From positions 1 to 34,034 of the forward strand of contig JAOZHB010000075.1 in assembly GCA_026015035.1 (NCBI GenBank): a DNA stretch of 34,034 bases, given 5' to 3'. The DNA is from Candidatus Bathyarchaeota archaeon. GTDB taxonomy: Archaea > Thermoproteota > Bathyarchaeia > RBG-16-48-13 > GCA-020355125. The position numbers and the translations under genes are program-made. How positions within the stretch are numbered: the first letter of the stretch is position 1; each line of letters starts with the position of its first letter. The notes beneath the pieces are model-generated. The model saw only the letters and a list, made by a program, of their open reading frames with translations, was not told the DNA's origin and made no database searches. Shown piece by piece: positions 8,721 to 31,969 of this stretch.

Positions 8721-9248
8721 TTGGATTCACGGGGGTCAAAATCGACTGGTGCAGAAAGAGACATACCCGCTGCGGCCTCGCGCGCTAAGGCCCCTGCAAC
8801 CCAACTCGATTCAAAAATAATCTGTAAGGAGGTTAAAGTTAACGTGGAACGAAAAGACGCCGTAGAGGGCTTGACGTCCTTGGCAATCCAAGTGGATGAA
8901 AAGGGGCAGGTTCACTCCTTTACTGACGAAAACGCGACGTGGAAGTTCGTGGACCCAATAACCGTCGTTGACCTGGTTGATAGGTACAACGATCTCTTAG
9001 CCGAAACAACAGAGGGCTTGGCGTCCCTGGTAATCCAAGTGGATGAAGAGGGGCAGGTTCACTCCTTTACTGACGAAAACGCGACGTGGAAGTTCGTGGA
9101 CCCAATAACCGTCGTTGAATTAGTTGATAAGTACAAAATGCTCTTAGCGAATGTTGTCGTGGAACCCAAAGTCGTTACGAATAAAGTCTTTACAAAGACG
9201 TCATTGCCACCCCAAGCCAGTTCTGACCGGTTCTTCCTCAGACGGTGA
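8721..9248 (+). CDS. Unknown protein with tandem 49-residue duplication
   Basis: 175 residues from TTG 8721; not recognised as a known family. Two units of 49 residues follow each other (from EGLTSLAIQVDE.. at about residue 49 and EGLASLVIQVDE.. at about 98). Both contain GQVHSFTDENATWKFVDP then ITVV-x-LVD-x-Y. The unit looks like two or three beta strands plus a helix. There is no signal peptide or membrane segment. The start is uncertain: a TATA-like box at 8688-8698 would make TTG 8721 leaderless, whereas GGAGG at 8828-8832 stands 11 nt before an in-frame GTG (8844), which would give 134 residues without the low-complexity N-terminus. The frame over the repeats is clearly coding; the function is unknown. 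Confidence 0.65.
   Translation: MDSRGSKSTGAERDIPAAASRAKAPATQLDSKIICKEVKVNVERKDAVEGLTSLAIQVDEKGQVHSFTDENATWKFVDPITVVDLVDRYNDLLAETTEGLASLVIQVDEEGQVHSFTDENATWKFVDPITVVELVDKYKMLLANVVVEPKVVTNKVFTKTSLPPQASSDRFFLRR
8865..9158 (+). repeat. Two-copy direct repeat, 147-bp period
   Basis: Copies start at 8865 and 9012. A core of 70 bp is identical base for base (8902-8971 versus 9049-9118), including all silent positions, with divergence at both edges. This points to recent duplication or ongoing gene conversion. Confidence 0.9.
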
Positions 9249-11598: not shown

Positions 11599-12612
11599 TT
11601 AAAGGCTCCCAAACCGATGCCTCGCGAAGTCGACCGCCATCTTAATGGCTTCCATCATGCTGGTGGGATTGGCCACGCCTATTCCAGCTATGTCAAAAGC
11701 GGTTCCGTGGTCAACGGAGGTCCGGATGATGGGTAGGCCCAGGGTGATGTTCACTCCTCTGTCGAAGCCAAGAAGCTTCACGGGGATGTGGCCTTGATCG
11801 TGGTACATGGCTACGACGACGTCAAACGCGTTATTCGCGGCCTTGAGGAAGACAGTGTCGGGTGGAAGGGGTCCTTGCGCGTTTATCCCCAATGCGGTAG
11901 CTTCCTGAACAGCTGGCTTGATGTGGTTCAGCTCCTCCCCGCCGAAGAGACCGCTCTCCCCGGCGTGCGGGTTTAACCCTGATACAGCGATCCGCGGATT
12001 GGAGATGCCCATGGACGTTAATGTCTCGTGGGCTAAGACGATGGTTTTCAGAACTCGTTCCTTGTCGATCAAGTCACACGCCTCTCTCAGGGACACGTGA
12101 GTGGTCACGTGAATCACCCTCATGGAGCCTGCAGCGAGCATCATCGCGTAGTTACGTGTCTTAGTTAAGTGAGCGAGGATCTCGGTGTGGCCTTGGTAGT
12201 GATACCCTGCAAGATTGATGGCTTCCTTGTTGATGGGAGCTGTTGCGATGGCGTGGATCTCGTGGTTTAACGCAAGATCGACGGCCTTTTCCACGAATTC
12301 AACAGCTGCCTTTCCCGATGCTCGATTAACTGTTCCCACCTCAATCGACGGCAAATCCAGGTTCTTCAAGTCCAAGACATCCAGAACACCGAACTCGAAC
12401 ATGGCTTCCTGAACGTCGACCACTACTCTAAGCTTCACAGAGGCTTGAGTTGCTTTAACCGCCCGTGCAATGGACTTGGCGTCTCCGATGACGAGGGGAC
12501 AACAGATCTCGTAGGTTTCTCTCACGGCCAACGCTTTAACGATCACTTCGGGGCCGATGCCTGCTGCGTCTCCCATCGTTATCCCAATTATGGGTCTGAA
12601 TGTTCGGTTCAT
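11599..12612 (-). CDS. pdxA2: PdxA-family 4-phospho-hydroxyacid dehydrogenase (threonate/erythronate 4-phosphate type)
   Basis: 337 residues. TMGDAAGIGPE (12-22) is the family start motif; GHTE at 141-144 is the substrate phosphate/carboxylate loop; metal-binding His172 (VTTHVS), His216 (LNPHAGESG) and His271 (MYHDQG) are all present. PdxA enzymes oxidatively decarboxylate a 4-phosphorylated hydroxyacid. The ATG overlaps the TGA of the upstream DUF1537 kinase (ATGA), so the two are translationally coupled. Kinase-PdxA2 pairs are known to turn D-threonate or D-erythronate into dihydroxyacetone phosphate via the 4-phosphate. A vitamin B6 role is unlikely, since archaea normally use PdxS/PdxT. 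The exact substrate is inference. Confidence 0.9.
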   Translation of the reverse strand: MNRTFRPIIGITMGDAAGIGPEVIVKALAVRETYEICCPLVIGDAKSIARAVKATQASVKLRVVVDVQEAMFEFGVLDVLDLKNLDLPSIEVGTVNRASGKAAVEFVEKAVDLALNHEIHAIATAPINKEAINLAGYHYQGHTEILAHLTKTRNYAMMLAAGSMRVIHVTTHVSLREACDLIDKERVLKTIVLAHETLTSMGISNPRIAVSGLNPHAGESGLFGGEELNHIKPAVQEATALGINAQGPLPPDTVFLKAANNAFDVVVAMYHDQGHIPVKLLGFDRGVNITLGLPIIRTSVDHGTAFDIAGIGVANPTSMMEAIKMAVDFARHRFGSL

Positions 12613-13889
12613 CTCTGCTTCCTCAAGTATTCGATGGCTGTGACGAGGGCGTCTTCGTCGCCAAAGGCTCCTGCCTTCGTGACGACCCGGGTTCCACACG
12701 CTGGTCCTCCAACGATTGTGACCACGGGGATTCCTGGTAAGATCTCTTCCTCAACCCGCACCTCGAGGACATCGAGCGCCGTGTAAACGTTGAAGGCGGT
12801 TTCTCCCCCCGTCACCACCATCCCACACACGTTTTCCCTCGGCACGATGGCTTGCGACGTTCTACCAAGGATGTGACCCATCTGAGTCCTCATTTTCCGG
12901 TCCGATAACCCAAGGCCTCTGCCCGACTCCTTCGCCTCCTCTAAGGCGCTCAGGGACTCCGCCAGCCTGATGATGACGTCCATTCCGGCGTGAAGGGCTT
13001 TCTCCGCCTCGTCCACCACTCTGGCAACCTCAAGGCTTCCGGCCTCTTTCCCCCTCAGAACCCGGTGCACGTCGATGGTGACGACCTTTACGTTCAAGGT
13101 TTTCGCTGCCGTACGGATCTGCTGTGCCGTTACCTCACTCACACTGCCCGCGATTACTACGACGCATTCTCCTCCGTCCACGCCCAGCCCCAAGGCTTCT
13201 GGCAGCTCCTCCGCTAAACCACCTGACCCACACACGAGGACGGGCTGGTCAAGGCTCGCGATCGTCTGCGCTATGATCTTCAAATTCCTTTGCGAGACGG
13301 CGTCGACCACGATTATCTGGCTGCCTTCTTTCAGCTGTCTCACAACTTCGCCTTGAACCCTCTTCACTCCCCTTGAAACTATGCCGATGTCAATTAGGGA
13401 CACCCTTTTCCCGCTTTGACTTCGAATGAGAGTTGGGATGTGTGATTGTCTCACCGGCGACTCGGGGTCCTTCGCGACCTCGGTGTCTTCGATGAGGCTT
13501 TGATTCTTGAGGTGAAAACCTCCGACCGTGATTCTTCCATTTTTCGGATACGCTGGACAGAGGATGACTGCTGACACGACCAACGTGTCCATGGCTGCGT
13601 CAAGTTCAACACCCAAATTCCCCCTGAGGGTTGAATCAATCTTCTTGTAGAGAAGCTCTGCTCCCATCTTCTTGAATTCTTCGGAGGCCAACGCCACCTT
13701 CTCGTAGGCCACATCTCTTGTATCGCCTCGACTCTCCGTGTCAAACACGAGGACGTCCACTCTCTCCGCTATCTCCCCAATTCTCTTCAGATCCCGCACA
13801 ATCGTCGTTTTCAACCGCTTCTTCGCAAATTGTACACCGGTATCCGCAGCACCTGTGTAATCATCTGCTATTATGCCAACTCGAACCAT
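12609..13889 (-). CDS. Four-carbon acid sugar kinase (DUF1537 family)
   Basis: 426 residues, typical for the family. The N-terminal half has ADDYTGAADTG (8-18), the substrate-binding DDxTGA motif, and KKIDSTLRGNLG. The C-terminal half has GSGGLAEELPEALG, VVTGGETAF and GGPACGTRVVTKAGAFGDEDAL, the ATP-binding signature. Characterised members (DtnK, DenK, OtnK) phosphorylate D-threonate, D-erythronate or 3-oxo-tetronate at O4. ATG 13889 is preceded by GAGGT 7 nt away; the open frame further upstream has no coding character. It is first gene of the operon with the PdxA-like dehydrogenase, so threonate or erythronate is the likeliest substrate. Confidence 0.92.
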   Translation of the reverse strand: MVRVGIIADDYTGAADTGVQFAKKRLKTTIVRDLKRIGEIAERVDVLVFDTESRGDTRDVAYEKVALASEEFKKMGAELLYKKIDSTLRGNLGVELDAAMDTLVVSAVILCPAYPKNGRITVGGFHLKNQSLIEDTEVAKDPESPVRQSHIPTLIRSQSGKRVSLIDIGIVSRGVKRVQGEVVRQLKEGSQIIVVDAVSQRNLKIIAQTIASLDQPVLVCGSGGLAEELPEALGLGVDGGECVVVIAGSVSEVTAQQIRTAAKTLNVKVVTIDVHRVLRGKEAGSLEVARVVDEAEKALHAGMDVIIRLAESLSALEEAKESGRGLGLSDRKMRTQMGHILGRTSQAIVPRENVCGMVVTGGETAFNVYTALDVLEVRVEEEILPGIPVVTIVGGPACGTRVVTKAGAFGDEDALVTAIEYLRKQR

Positions 13890-19485: not shown

Positions 19486-20022
19486 CCGCCCTTACTCCTC
19501 TTCATACGTTGAGATTGCTCGTGTCTGAACACAAGAGTATCCATAATAAACATTTACTCCAAGTGCCTCGAACCGTATTAAACGGGATTAATTAACTTGA
19601 ATTATGATAACGAATTACCATTCAGGAAAGGATTGGCTAGCTACACAAGATTGAAGATATACCGCTAGACAAGTCTCAATCAAAATCAGTCCAACTCCCA
19701 AAAGGGGTGACATCATACGACCTATTCAGATCAATACCCGCACTCAGACTGCGTTATCCAAAAAGATATCTATGTTCAAGCTAGCTACCATCATTTGGCA
19801 TAAACAAACTCTACGAGCTAGCCGACTAACATGTAGACGTTCTAGCTAACTAGGTTAGAGGTGGCGTTGAAAAAAGCATCTGACAGGGTCCATGAGGTAG
19901 ATCATAAGAAATATTCTCATGTTATCTGGTTTATATTAATAAATCTCTAGGAATATTGAGATAAATCTTATCTATTTTATTTGACTGTTTTAACTTACGC
20001 GAAAAAATAGGAGGTGAGACGA
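19486..20022. other. Long AT-rich intergenic region with a cluster of AGCTAGC sites
   Basis: 537 bp of divergent promoter DNA. The motif occurs at 19636-19644, 19779-19787, 19816-19822 and 19842-19854 (CTAGCTAACTAGG), the densest cluster in the window. Near its right end is an AT-rich block (19930-19990), with TATTTTATTT about 19971-19980 as TATA candidate for the RGG/zinc-ribbon gene. No ORF over 25 codons with good signals was seen. Confidence 0.55.
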
Positions 20023-20643
20023 TTGAGGCGACGTGGATTCAGAGGAGGTGCCATGAGACGAGGTATGCGCGGCGGGTTCAGAAGAGGCCCAATGATGCGA
20101 GGGGGATTCAGAGGAGGCTTCAGACGTCCTTACGGGCGATTCTGGGGTAGGCCCTACAGGTCGTTTATGTGGTGGCGACCATTTTGGTGGTATCCGACCT
20201 GGTGGCGACCCCTCTATTGGATGCCCTGGGCCATGATGATGGGCGGATTCATGTATCTCCTCTATGATTCGATGGCGTACAAGTTGTATGACGACGATGT
20301 GGGACATGTAGAGCGAGAAACCGGAAAACCTGTAAAAGACCTGAGTGAGGAAGAACTCGTAGCTGCTATGAAGCGACTGGGTATCCAGAAACTTGAGGTC
20401 ACTCCAGACGATAGGAACATCATCTCAAAAGCAAAAAAACCTGTAAGAGACCTGAGTGAGAAGGAGATATTGGCCGCTATGAAGCGGCTGGGTATCCAGA
20501 AACTTGAGGTCACCCCAGAGGATAATGGAGCAATTTCGCATTCAACAACGAGGGAAGCTAGGTATTGCATTTACTGTGGAAACAAATTGTCCTCTGAAGC
20601 AGTATTTTGCGAACTATGTGGCAGAAAGATCGAACTGCGGTAA
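20023..20643 (+). CDS. RGG-rich, Trp-rich membrane-associated protein with tandem repeat and zinc ribbon
   Basis: 206 residues, not recognised as a named family. In order: an Arg/Gly/Met-rich RGG-like tail (1-40); an aromatic stretch with seven Trp in about 25 residues leading into a hydrophobic segment (MMMGGFMYLLY) that may dip into or cross the membrane; two 29-residue units with a 37-residue period (starting KPV-K/R-DLSE, both holding AAMKRLGIQKLEVTP); and a C-terminal zinc ribbon CIYCGNKL..CELCGRK. GGAGGTGA at 20010-20017 selects TTG 20023 with 5-nt spacing, rather than the GTG at 20014 inside that site. RNA or nucleic acid binding through the RGG tail is inference. Confidence 0.78.
   Translation: MRRRGFRGGAMRRGMRGGFRRGPMMRGGFRGGFRRPYGRFWGRPYRSFMWWRPFWWYPTWWRPLYWMPWAMMMGGFMYLLYDSMAYKLYDDDVGHVERETGKPVKDLSEEELVAAMKRLGIQKLEVTPDDRNIISKAKKPVRDLSEKEILAAMKRLGIQKLEVTPEDNGAISHSTTREARYCIYCGNKLSSEAVFCELCGRKIELR
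20326..20523 (+). repeat. Tandem repeat, 111-bp period, two copies
   Basis: Units at 20326-20412 and 20437-20523 match at 75 of 87 positions. The stretch coding MKRLGIQKLEVTP is nearly unchanged at the DNA level, so the duplication is fairly recent. Confidence 0.85.
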
Positions 20644-30964: not shown

Positions 30965-31969
30965 ATGTCAAACAATAAACCCAGAATTGGCCTTTTCATC
31001 GGCGATGCGACAGGGATTGGCCCCGAGATCACGGTAAAAGTCGTGGCTCAACGAAAAGCGTTATCCAACTGTTTTATCATAGGTGTTGGAGACCACCGCG
31101 TATTTCAGTTAGGCCAGAGGACGGCTCAATTAGCATTGGAGTACCCTGTCTACAATGACATCGATGAGGTGGACTCTTCAAAAGGAAATTTCGCCTTTTT
31201 AGATCTGAAAAGCCTCGATCCGAAGGAATTAACTCTGGGTCAGATAAGCCCTGTCTCAGGTAGGGCCGTCGGTGACTCACTGAAACTGATGGTCCAATTA
31301 GCTCTTACTAAACGAATAGATGCATTAGTTTATGCTCCCCTAAATAAGGAAGCCCTGTATCGGGGAGGATACCCGTACAAAGGAGAAATCGGCTTTTTAG
31401 CTCATCTATTGGGGGTCAAAGACGGCTTTGGAGAGATGAATGTTCTTGGCGAATTATGGACTTCCCGCGTCACCTCTCACATCAGCATCGCCGACGTTAG
31501 CAAAAATATCACCCGAAATAAAGTCTTAGACGCCATAACTCTTGCTGACTCCACGTTGAAGCGAGCCCATATAGAACATGCTAAGATCGCCGTCTCGGCG
31601 CTAAATCCACATGGTGGTGAAGGAGGCTTGTTCGGACGCGAAGAACAGGAAGCCATTGCCCCCGCTGTACAAGACGCTAAGAACCTCGGGATAAACGTAG
31701 TAGGCCCCTACTCAGCCGACACCATCTTTCTACGCATTTCGAAGGAGAAGTTAAACGCCATTGTTACCATGTATCATGATCAAGGGCAAATCGCTATGAA
31801 GCTGATGGGCTTCAACGAAGGCGTGACCGTTAACGCAGGCTTACCCGTAGTAATCACCACGCCTTCCCACGGCACTGCATTCGACATCGTTGGAAAAGGC
31901 GTAGCAAATCCAAACGCGTTAACGCAAGCCGTCGTGTTAGCCGCTAAAATGGCTTCTTGGCAATCCTAA
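30965..31969 (+). CDS. PdxA-family dehydrogenase paralogue with altered substrate loop
   Basis: 334 residues, aligning residue for residue with the first PdxA in this window over positions 140-280. The three metal-binding histidines are kept (His172 in VTSHIS, His216 in LNPHGGEGG, His271 in MYHDQG), as is GDATGIGPE at the N-terminus. The GHTE loop, whose His-Thr pair contacts the substrate in the family, reads GEIG here (Glu141-Ile142 by alignment). The enzyme is thus probably active in metal/NAD chemistry but on another substrate. No kinase is adjacent; the OFA-type transporter downstream might import the substrate or its precursor (inference). Confidence 0.88.
   Translation: MSNNKPRIGLFIGDATGIGPEITVKVVAQRKALSNCFIIGVGDHRVFQLGQRTAQLALEYPVYNDIDEVDSSKGNFAFLDLKSLDPKELTLGQISPVSGRAVGDSLKLMVQLALTKRIDALVYAPLNKEALYRGGYPYKGEIGFLAHLLGVKDGFGEMNVLGELWTSRVTSHISIADVSKNITRNKVLDAITLADSTLKRAHIEHAKIAVSALNPHGGEGGLFGREEQEAIAPAVQDAKNLGINVVGPYSADTIFLRISKEKLNAIVTMYHDQGQIAMKLMGFNEGVTVNAGLPVVITTPSHGTAFDIVGKGVANPNALTQAVVLAAKMASWQS

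Follow-up and report, generated by a model that had tools for sequence, protein, structure and literature searches.

A lineage-restricted protein family of Bathyarchaeia combining an Arg/Gly-rich tail, a conserved aromatic segment, tandem units and a zinc ribbon

The gene and its distribution

The gene at positions 20023..20643 on the forward strand of the 34,034-nt stretch of Bathyarchaeotal DNA analysed here (the window) represents a new, lineage-restricted protein family, whose range so far is one family of uncultured Bathyarchaeia. An earlier note on this DNA had described an RG tail, a Trp-rich segment, a hydrophobic segment, two 29-residue repeats and a ribbon, and all of these are present in the order given there. 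The combination is unusual, the parts themselves are ordinary.

The open reading frame runs from TTG to TAA and encodes 206 aa. The fact that homologues keep the order of the parts, together with whole-protein dN/dS values well below 1 (0.13 between the window protein and its homologue in genome G003, 0.24 between the window protein and that in G005, and 0.13 between G003 and G005), shows that this is a real protein. The most likely start codon is TTG 20023, since the alternative GTG that the ORF finder gives at 20014 falls within the ribosome-binding site AGGAGGTGA (20009..20017, forward strand), read directly from the sequence 5 nt upstream of the TTG, and since the ATG of the G003 homologue aligns with the TTG.

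Two Bathyarchaeota records came out of one scan across 84,980 species genomes, a search that can detect only close relatives. Of these, CP070659.1 (L009; genome G003) holds a complete gene and DAOVBJ010000003.1 (L010; genome G001) the C-terminal half, at a contig end. A further complete homologue, in G005 (L012), was added by a search of related genomes. The gene is found in four of the seven genomes searched from one GTDB family of Bathyarchaeia, the window genome included; the three genomes in which it was not found are 65–89% complete. A profile of residues 34–176 gave nothing strong outside the known members in 257 genomes of the class, and a broader profile searched against 398 genomes of the phylum gave nothing strong except its own input sequences. 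Matches to a single unit elsewhere in the phylum were judged to be due to chance, being located in unrelated enzymes. Both complete homologues keep the order of the parts, so the possibility, raised in the earlier note, that no homologues retain the architecture falls away; nor did any family with a defined function turn up as homologous, the other outcome that the note had named as refuting its reading.

The neighbourhood of the gene was considered as a clue and set aside, as nothing is shared beyond the genus. By sequence reading, the neighbours include rfcL within the genus of the window genome; those in G003 include an EamA-type transporter and a polysaccharide deacetylase, and those in G005 MFS and MscS-type genes. 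A viral or plasmid origin was likewise rejected, relatives not being found there.

The N-terminal half

Residues 1–35 (20023..20127, forward strand) form an Arg/Gly-rich tail with four RGG and three additional RG, modelled by AlphaFold at a pLDDT below 40. The two complete homologues have one and two RGG, and the Arg/Gly richness of the tail is kept in both while its length changes. RNA binding by this tail is no more than possible. Like the RGG/GAR tails of RNA-binding proteins, e.g. the N-terminus of fibrillarin, it appears as a disordered Arg/Gly-rich stretch with Phe between the repeats. It differs from them in being short, in its variable RGG count and in being followed by a Trp-rich segment, in a protein without an RNA-binding domain of known kind.

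The Trp/Tyr/Phe/Pro/Arg-rich segment that follows (residues 36–69; 20128..20229, forward strand) is a candidate interfacial membrane anchor. The 36 residues 34–69 include 16 aromatics (9 Trp, 4 Tyr and 3 Phe). Its identity is 95% between window protein and G003, 84% between window protein and G005 and 89% between G003 and G005, with dN/dS of 0.02, 0.09 and 0.02, respectively; units and ribbon are 55–70% identical in the same three comparisons. The strongest constraint in the protein thus lies on the aromatic part and the adjoining hydrophobic stretch. Searched alone, the anchor segment was found only within the same GTDB family (the G001 contig ends before it).

A short Met-rich hydrophobic stretch (residues ~70–85; 20230..20277, forward strand) adjoins this segment, with weak hydropathy for a transmembrane helix. 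The best 19 residues (63–81) reach a Kyte-Doolittle mean of only 0.83, whereas the Wimley-White interfacial sum of the best 19-residue span (residues 48–66) is −14.8 kcal/mol, and these values speak for anchoring at the interface rather than by a transmembrane helix. The membrane-surface association that had been suggested for the aromatic part thus gains indirect support, from the favourable computed energy and from this being the best conserved part of the protein.

Tandem units and zinc ribbon

The two units have 29-residue cores at residues 102–130 (K102–D130; 20326..20412, forward strand) and 139–167 (K139–D167; 20437..20523, forward strand). They are spaced by 37 residues and identical at 24 of 29 positions, and the DNA is 87% identical across 89 nt. 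In a nucleotide tree of the four genomes, unit 2 of every genome clusters apart from unit 1. This grouping indicates that the duplication predates the divergence of the family, and homogenisation of the two units within genomes was rejected on the same grounds.

Two AlphaFold models were built from the four sequences, one of the whole protein (mean pLDDT 46) and one of the C-terminal part (53). Both, at low confidence, predict two short helices in each unit. A fold search with the whole-protein model, itself poor, gave no match at E ≤0.001, and comparison of the unit with PDB sequences gave lysozyme-type chance matches only (best E 0.31). Weak matches of the units were found to UBA_3 and to LEM (PF03020). 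The likeness to LEM lies in a unit helix with the pattern LSEEEL...LG, but the match of the protein reaches 17 bits against a cut-off of 24 and covers just 18 of the 40 positions of the domain (positions 2–19); of the eight units compared singly, one matches at E 0.05.

The C-terminal zinc ribbon, CX2C...CX2C (residues 181–202; 20563..20628, forward strand), has its knuckles at Cys 182/185 and 196/199, and the four Cys are invariant across the four sequences. The match to PF13240 scores 24.5 bits in the window protein (E 2.2e-5), just under the cut-off of 25, and 26.4 bits in the G001 homologue; from these profile scores the family can be assigned to PF13240, with the window protein borderline. 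Zn_Ribbon_1 (PF13240), Zn_ribbon_3 (PF13248) and DZR (PF12773) all share the C-terminal CX2C...CX2C with the window protein but explain only ~22 of its 206 residues and nothing about the rest. Beyond the ribbon, no other curated Pfam family fits the window protein, and searches of NCBIfam, PHROGs and PADLOC gave nothing credible. The best PHROGs match (E 3.3e-4) was weak, as were all the others there, and to families without assigned function; those in PADLOC were weak too (Cas10, E 7.5e-5, 19.7 bits). Viral contigs and phages gave no match, and we found no sign of membership in a phage or defence system.

The upstream region and other features of the window

The gap 5' of the gene measures 537 nt, towards a divergent HAD-family gene. 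An A/T-rich stretch within it (19940..19990, forward strand), partly conserved in an upstream alignment of three homologues, is a probable core promoter. No structured RNA or tRNA was found in the region of the gene.

The earlier note had pointed to four AGCTAGC sites in this long upstream region. There are indeed four strand hits, but they fall at only three places, because AGCTAGC is palindromic. The motif occurs 28 times in the whole window, against 2.2 expected. Counts of AGCTAGCT against a reversed control are 584/41 in the window genome, 271/29 in G001, 212/35 in G003 and 36/11 in G005, and the remaining eight genomes of the order lie near the control level or lower; strong enrichment is thus confined to the window genome and its two relatives G001 and G003. 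In sampled stretches of the window genome, ~144 kb in total, GCTAGC is ~26 times denser between genes than inside them, at ~2 per kb whether the genes beside the gap are convergent, divergent or co-directional. Its flanks show only a fading extension of the four-base repeat (AGCT)n. Alternating GC runs, AGCGCGCG and GCGCGCGC, likewise belong to the most frequent intergenic 8-mers in the sampled stretches (window and L093–L100).

The 5.3-kb contig of the G005 homologue holds no AGCTAGC. A role of the motif as regulator of the 206-aa gene was rejected given this absence and the genome-wide intergenic distribution, and the significance for the gene that had been suggested does not hold. (AGCT)n / GCTAGC is instead a lineage-specific, genome-wide intergenic feature with hundreds of copies per genome.

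Elsewhere in the window, a gene at 8721–9248 (forward strand) encodes a 175-aa protein with two near-identical repeats of ~46 residues. Its relatives within the order are restricted to the same genus, and the window genome holds two more copies, one of them with internal stops. Two genes that are PdxA-like by sequence reading, at 11599–12699 (reverse strand) and 30965–31969 (forward strand), are also found in these 34 kb.

Possible function

On the most likely reading, to which we give an even chance, the window protein is an adaptor or scaffold peripheral to the membrane, on its cytosolic side. Here the Trp/Tyr/Pro/Arg segment and its short Met-rich hydrophobic continuation would insert at the membrane interface, the Arg/Gly tail would contact anionic lipid head groups, or RNA near the membrane, and both helical units, together with the zinc ribbon, would extend into the cytosol, where their partner would be a protein or a nucleic acid. 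Membrane attachment, the binding of a partner, a two-helix form for the units and, from the four-Cys zinc ribbon, the cytosolic placement are all inferred here. This reading draws support from the conserved architecture, from the aromatic segment being both the most conserved and favourable in interfacial energy, and from the two short helices that both low-confidence models predict per unit. Small Bathyarchaeial SHOCT proteins and the membrane role proposed for SHOCT-like domains, both described below, also speak for it, as do the C-terminal zinc ribbons that are frequent on membrane proteins in these genomes (loci L014, L017, L029 and L030, by sequence reading). The reading is weakened by the lack of a conserved neighbourhood that would indicate a partner, by a hydrophobic stretch whose weakness leaves a transmembrane helix unsure and models of low confidence, and by units that match neither SHOCT nor any Pfam family.

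It has been proposed that SHOCT-like domains tether a variety of domains to the inner leaf of the membrane (PMC11237479). Eight proteins combining SHOCT with double zinc ribbons have been reported, and SHOCT did not oligomerise on testing (PMC3581485). Among the small Bathyarchaeial SHOCT proteins, L046, L047, L050 and L051 carry an aromatic/Gly-rich hydrophobic segment and a short C-terminal SHOCT. SHOCT proteins, these among them, resemble the window protein in their small size, the Arg/Gly- or Trp/Gly-rich N-terminus, the short hydrophobic part and the small helical C-terminal module, but the units of the window protein are duplicated and the protein ends in a zinc ribbon instead of SHOCT. 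No match to the 28-residue SHOCT profile (PF09851) was found in the whole protein at E 0.1 or in any of the eight units at E 1. Genomes from a different family of Bathyarchaeia encode, at L042, L063 and L064, Arg/Gly-rich SHOCT proteins of ~99–110 residues. An RG-rich leader and a Met patch come first in these, then a segment matching TGKNPxxMSEDELNAAMxKTG, and last SHOCT (E 4e-6 in L042).

That the window protein is a divergent SHOCT-type small protein, its helical units serving in place of SHOCT and its zinc ribbon having replaced SHOCT at the C terminus, is possible though doubtful; this reading concerns descent and is compatible with the membrane adaptor. For it speak the shared series of parts, including one similar unit in the L042 group, and a profile-profile match (hhalign) between this unit and unit 1 that spans 42 columns, with a probability of 93% and a single-comparison P of 2.5e-7. 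The match was however selected from 257 genomes at E 0.003 per genome, similar E-values were obtained for a radical-SAM-type protein, a type IA topoisomerase and a LysRS-like protein (names by sequence reading), and the unit itself has no match to PF09851. Picked from a large search and equalled in unrelated enzymes, the sequence match alone is thus at chance level; the matching context of parts makes the kinship plausible, and the similarity of the two units is suggestive only.

Two further readings place the protein elsewhere. Phase-separating, RNA-binding behaviour is typically driven by Arg and aromatic residues, and the RG tail and the aromatic/Arg segment might together form a sticky region of an RNA-binding or condensate protein whose units and ribbon bind RNA or the ribosome, with no role at the membrane. 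The Arg/Gly tail of both complete homologues and the ability of zinc ribbons to bind proteins or nucleic acids are consistent with this, but the RGG count is not conserved (four, one and two), the Trp/Pro/Met-rich segment is conserved at nearly every position (95% in G003), which sets it apart from most disordered stickers, and a hydrophobic stretch comes after it; we consider this reading rather unlikely. The hydrophobic patch of residues 63–85, with Arg before and Asp after it, would by the positive-inside rule place the N-terminus inside and could belong to a single-pass transmembrane sensor or surface protein with units and ribbon outside, or the reverse. The low hydropathy over 19 residues, interrupted by one Pro and a Gly pair, the usual function of four-Cys zinc ribbons in the reducing cytosol and the lack of a visible signal peptide make such a topology quite improbable. 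We attach little probability to a further reading, a membrane–RNA tether of one Bathyarchaeia family, in which the RG tail would hold RNA, the Trp-rich anchor the membrane, and units and ribbon would serve as a docking arm.

The near-invariant Trp/Pro/Arg segment offers a compact motif for tests at the membrane surface. If the reading as a membrane adaptor is right, Bathyarchaeial genomes, a large part of which is uncharacterised, would gain a lineage-specific membrane-peripheral adaptor. This would suggest a shuffling of modules among small archaeal proteins, the modules being short aromatic anchors, helical units and zinc ribbons.
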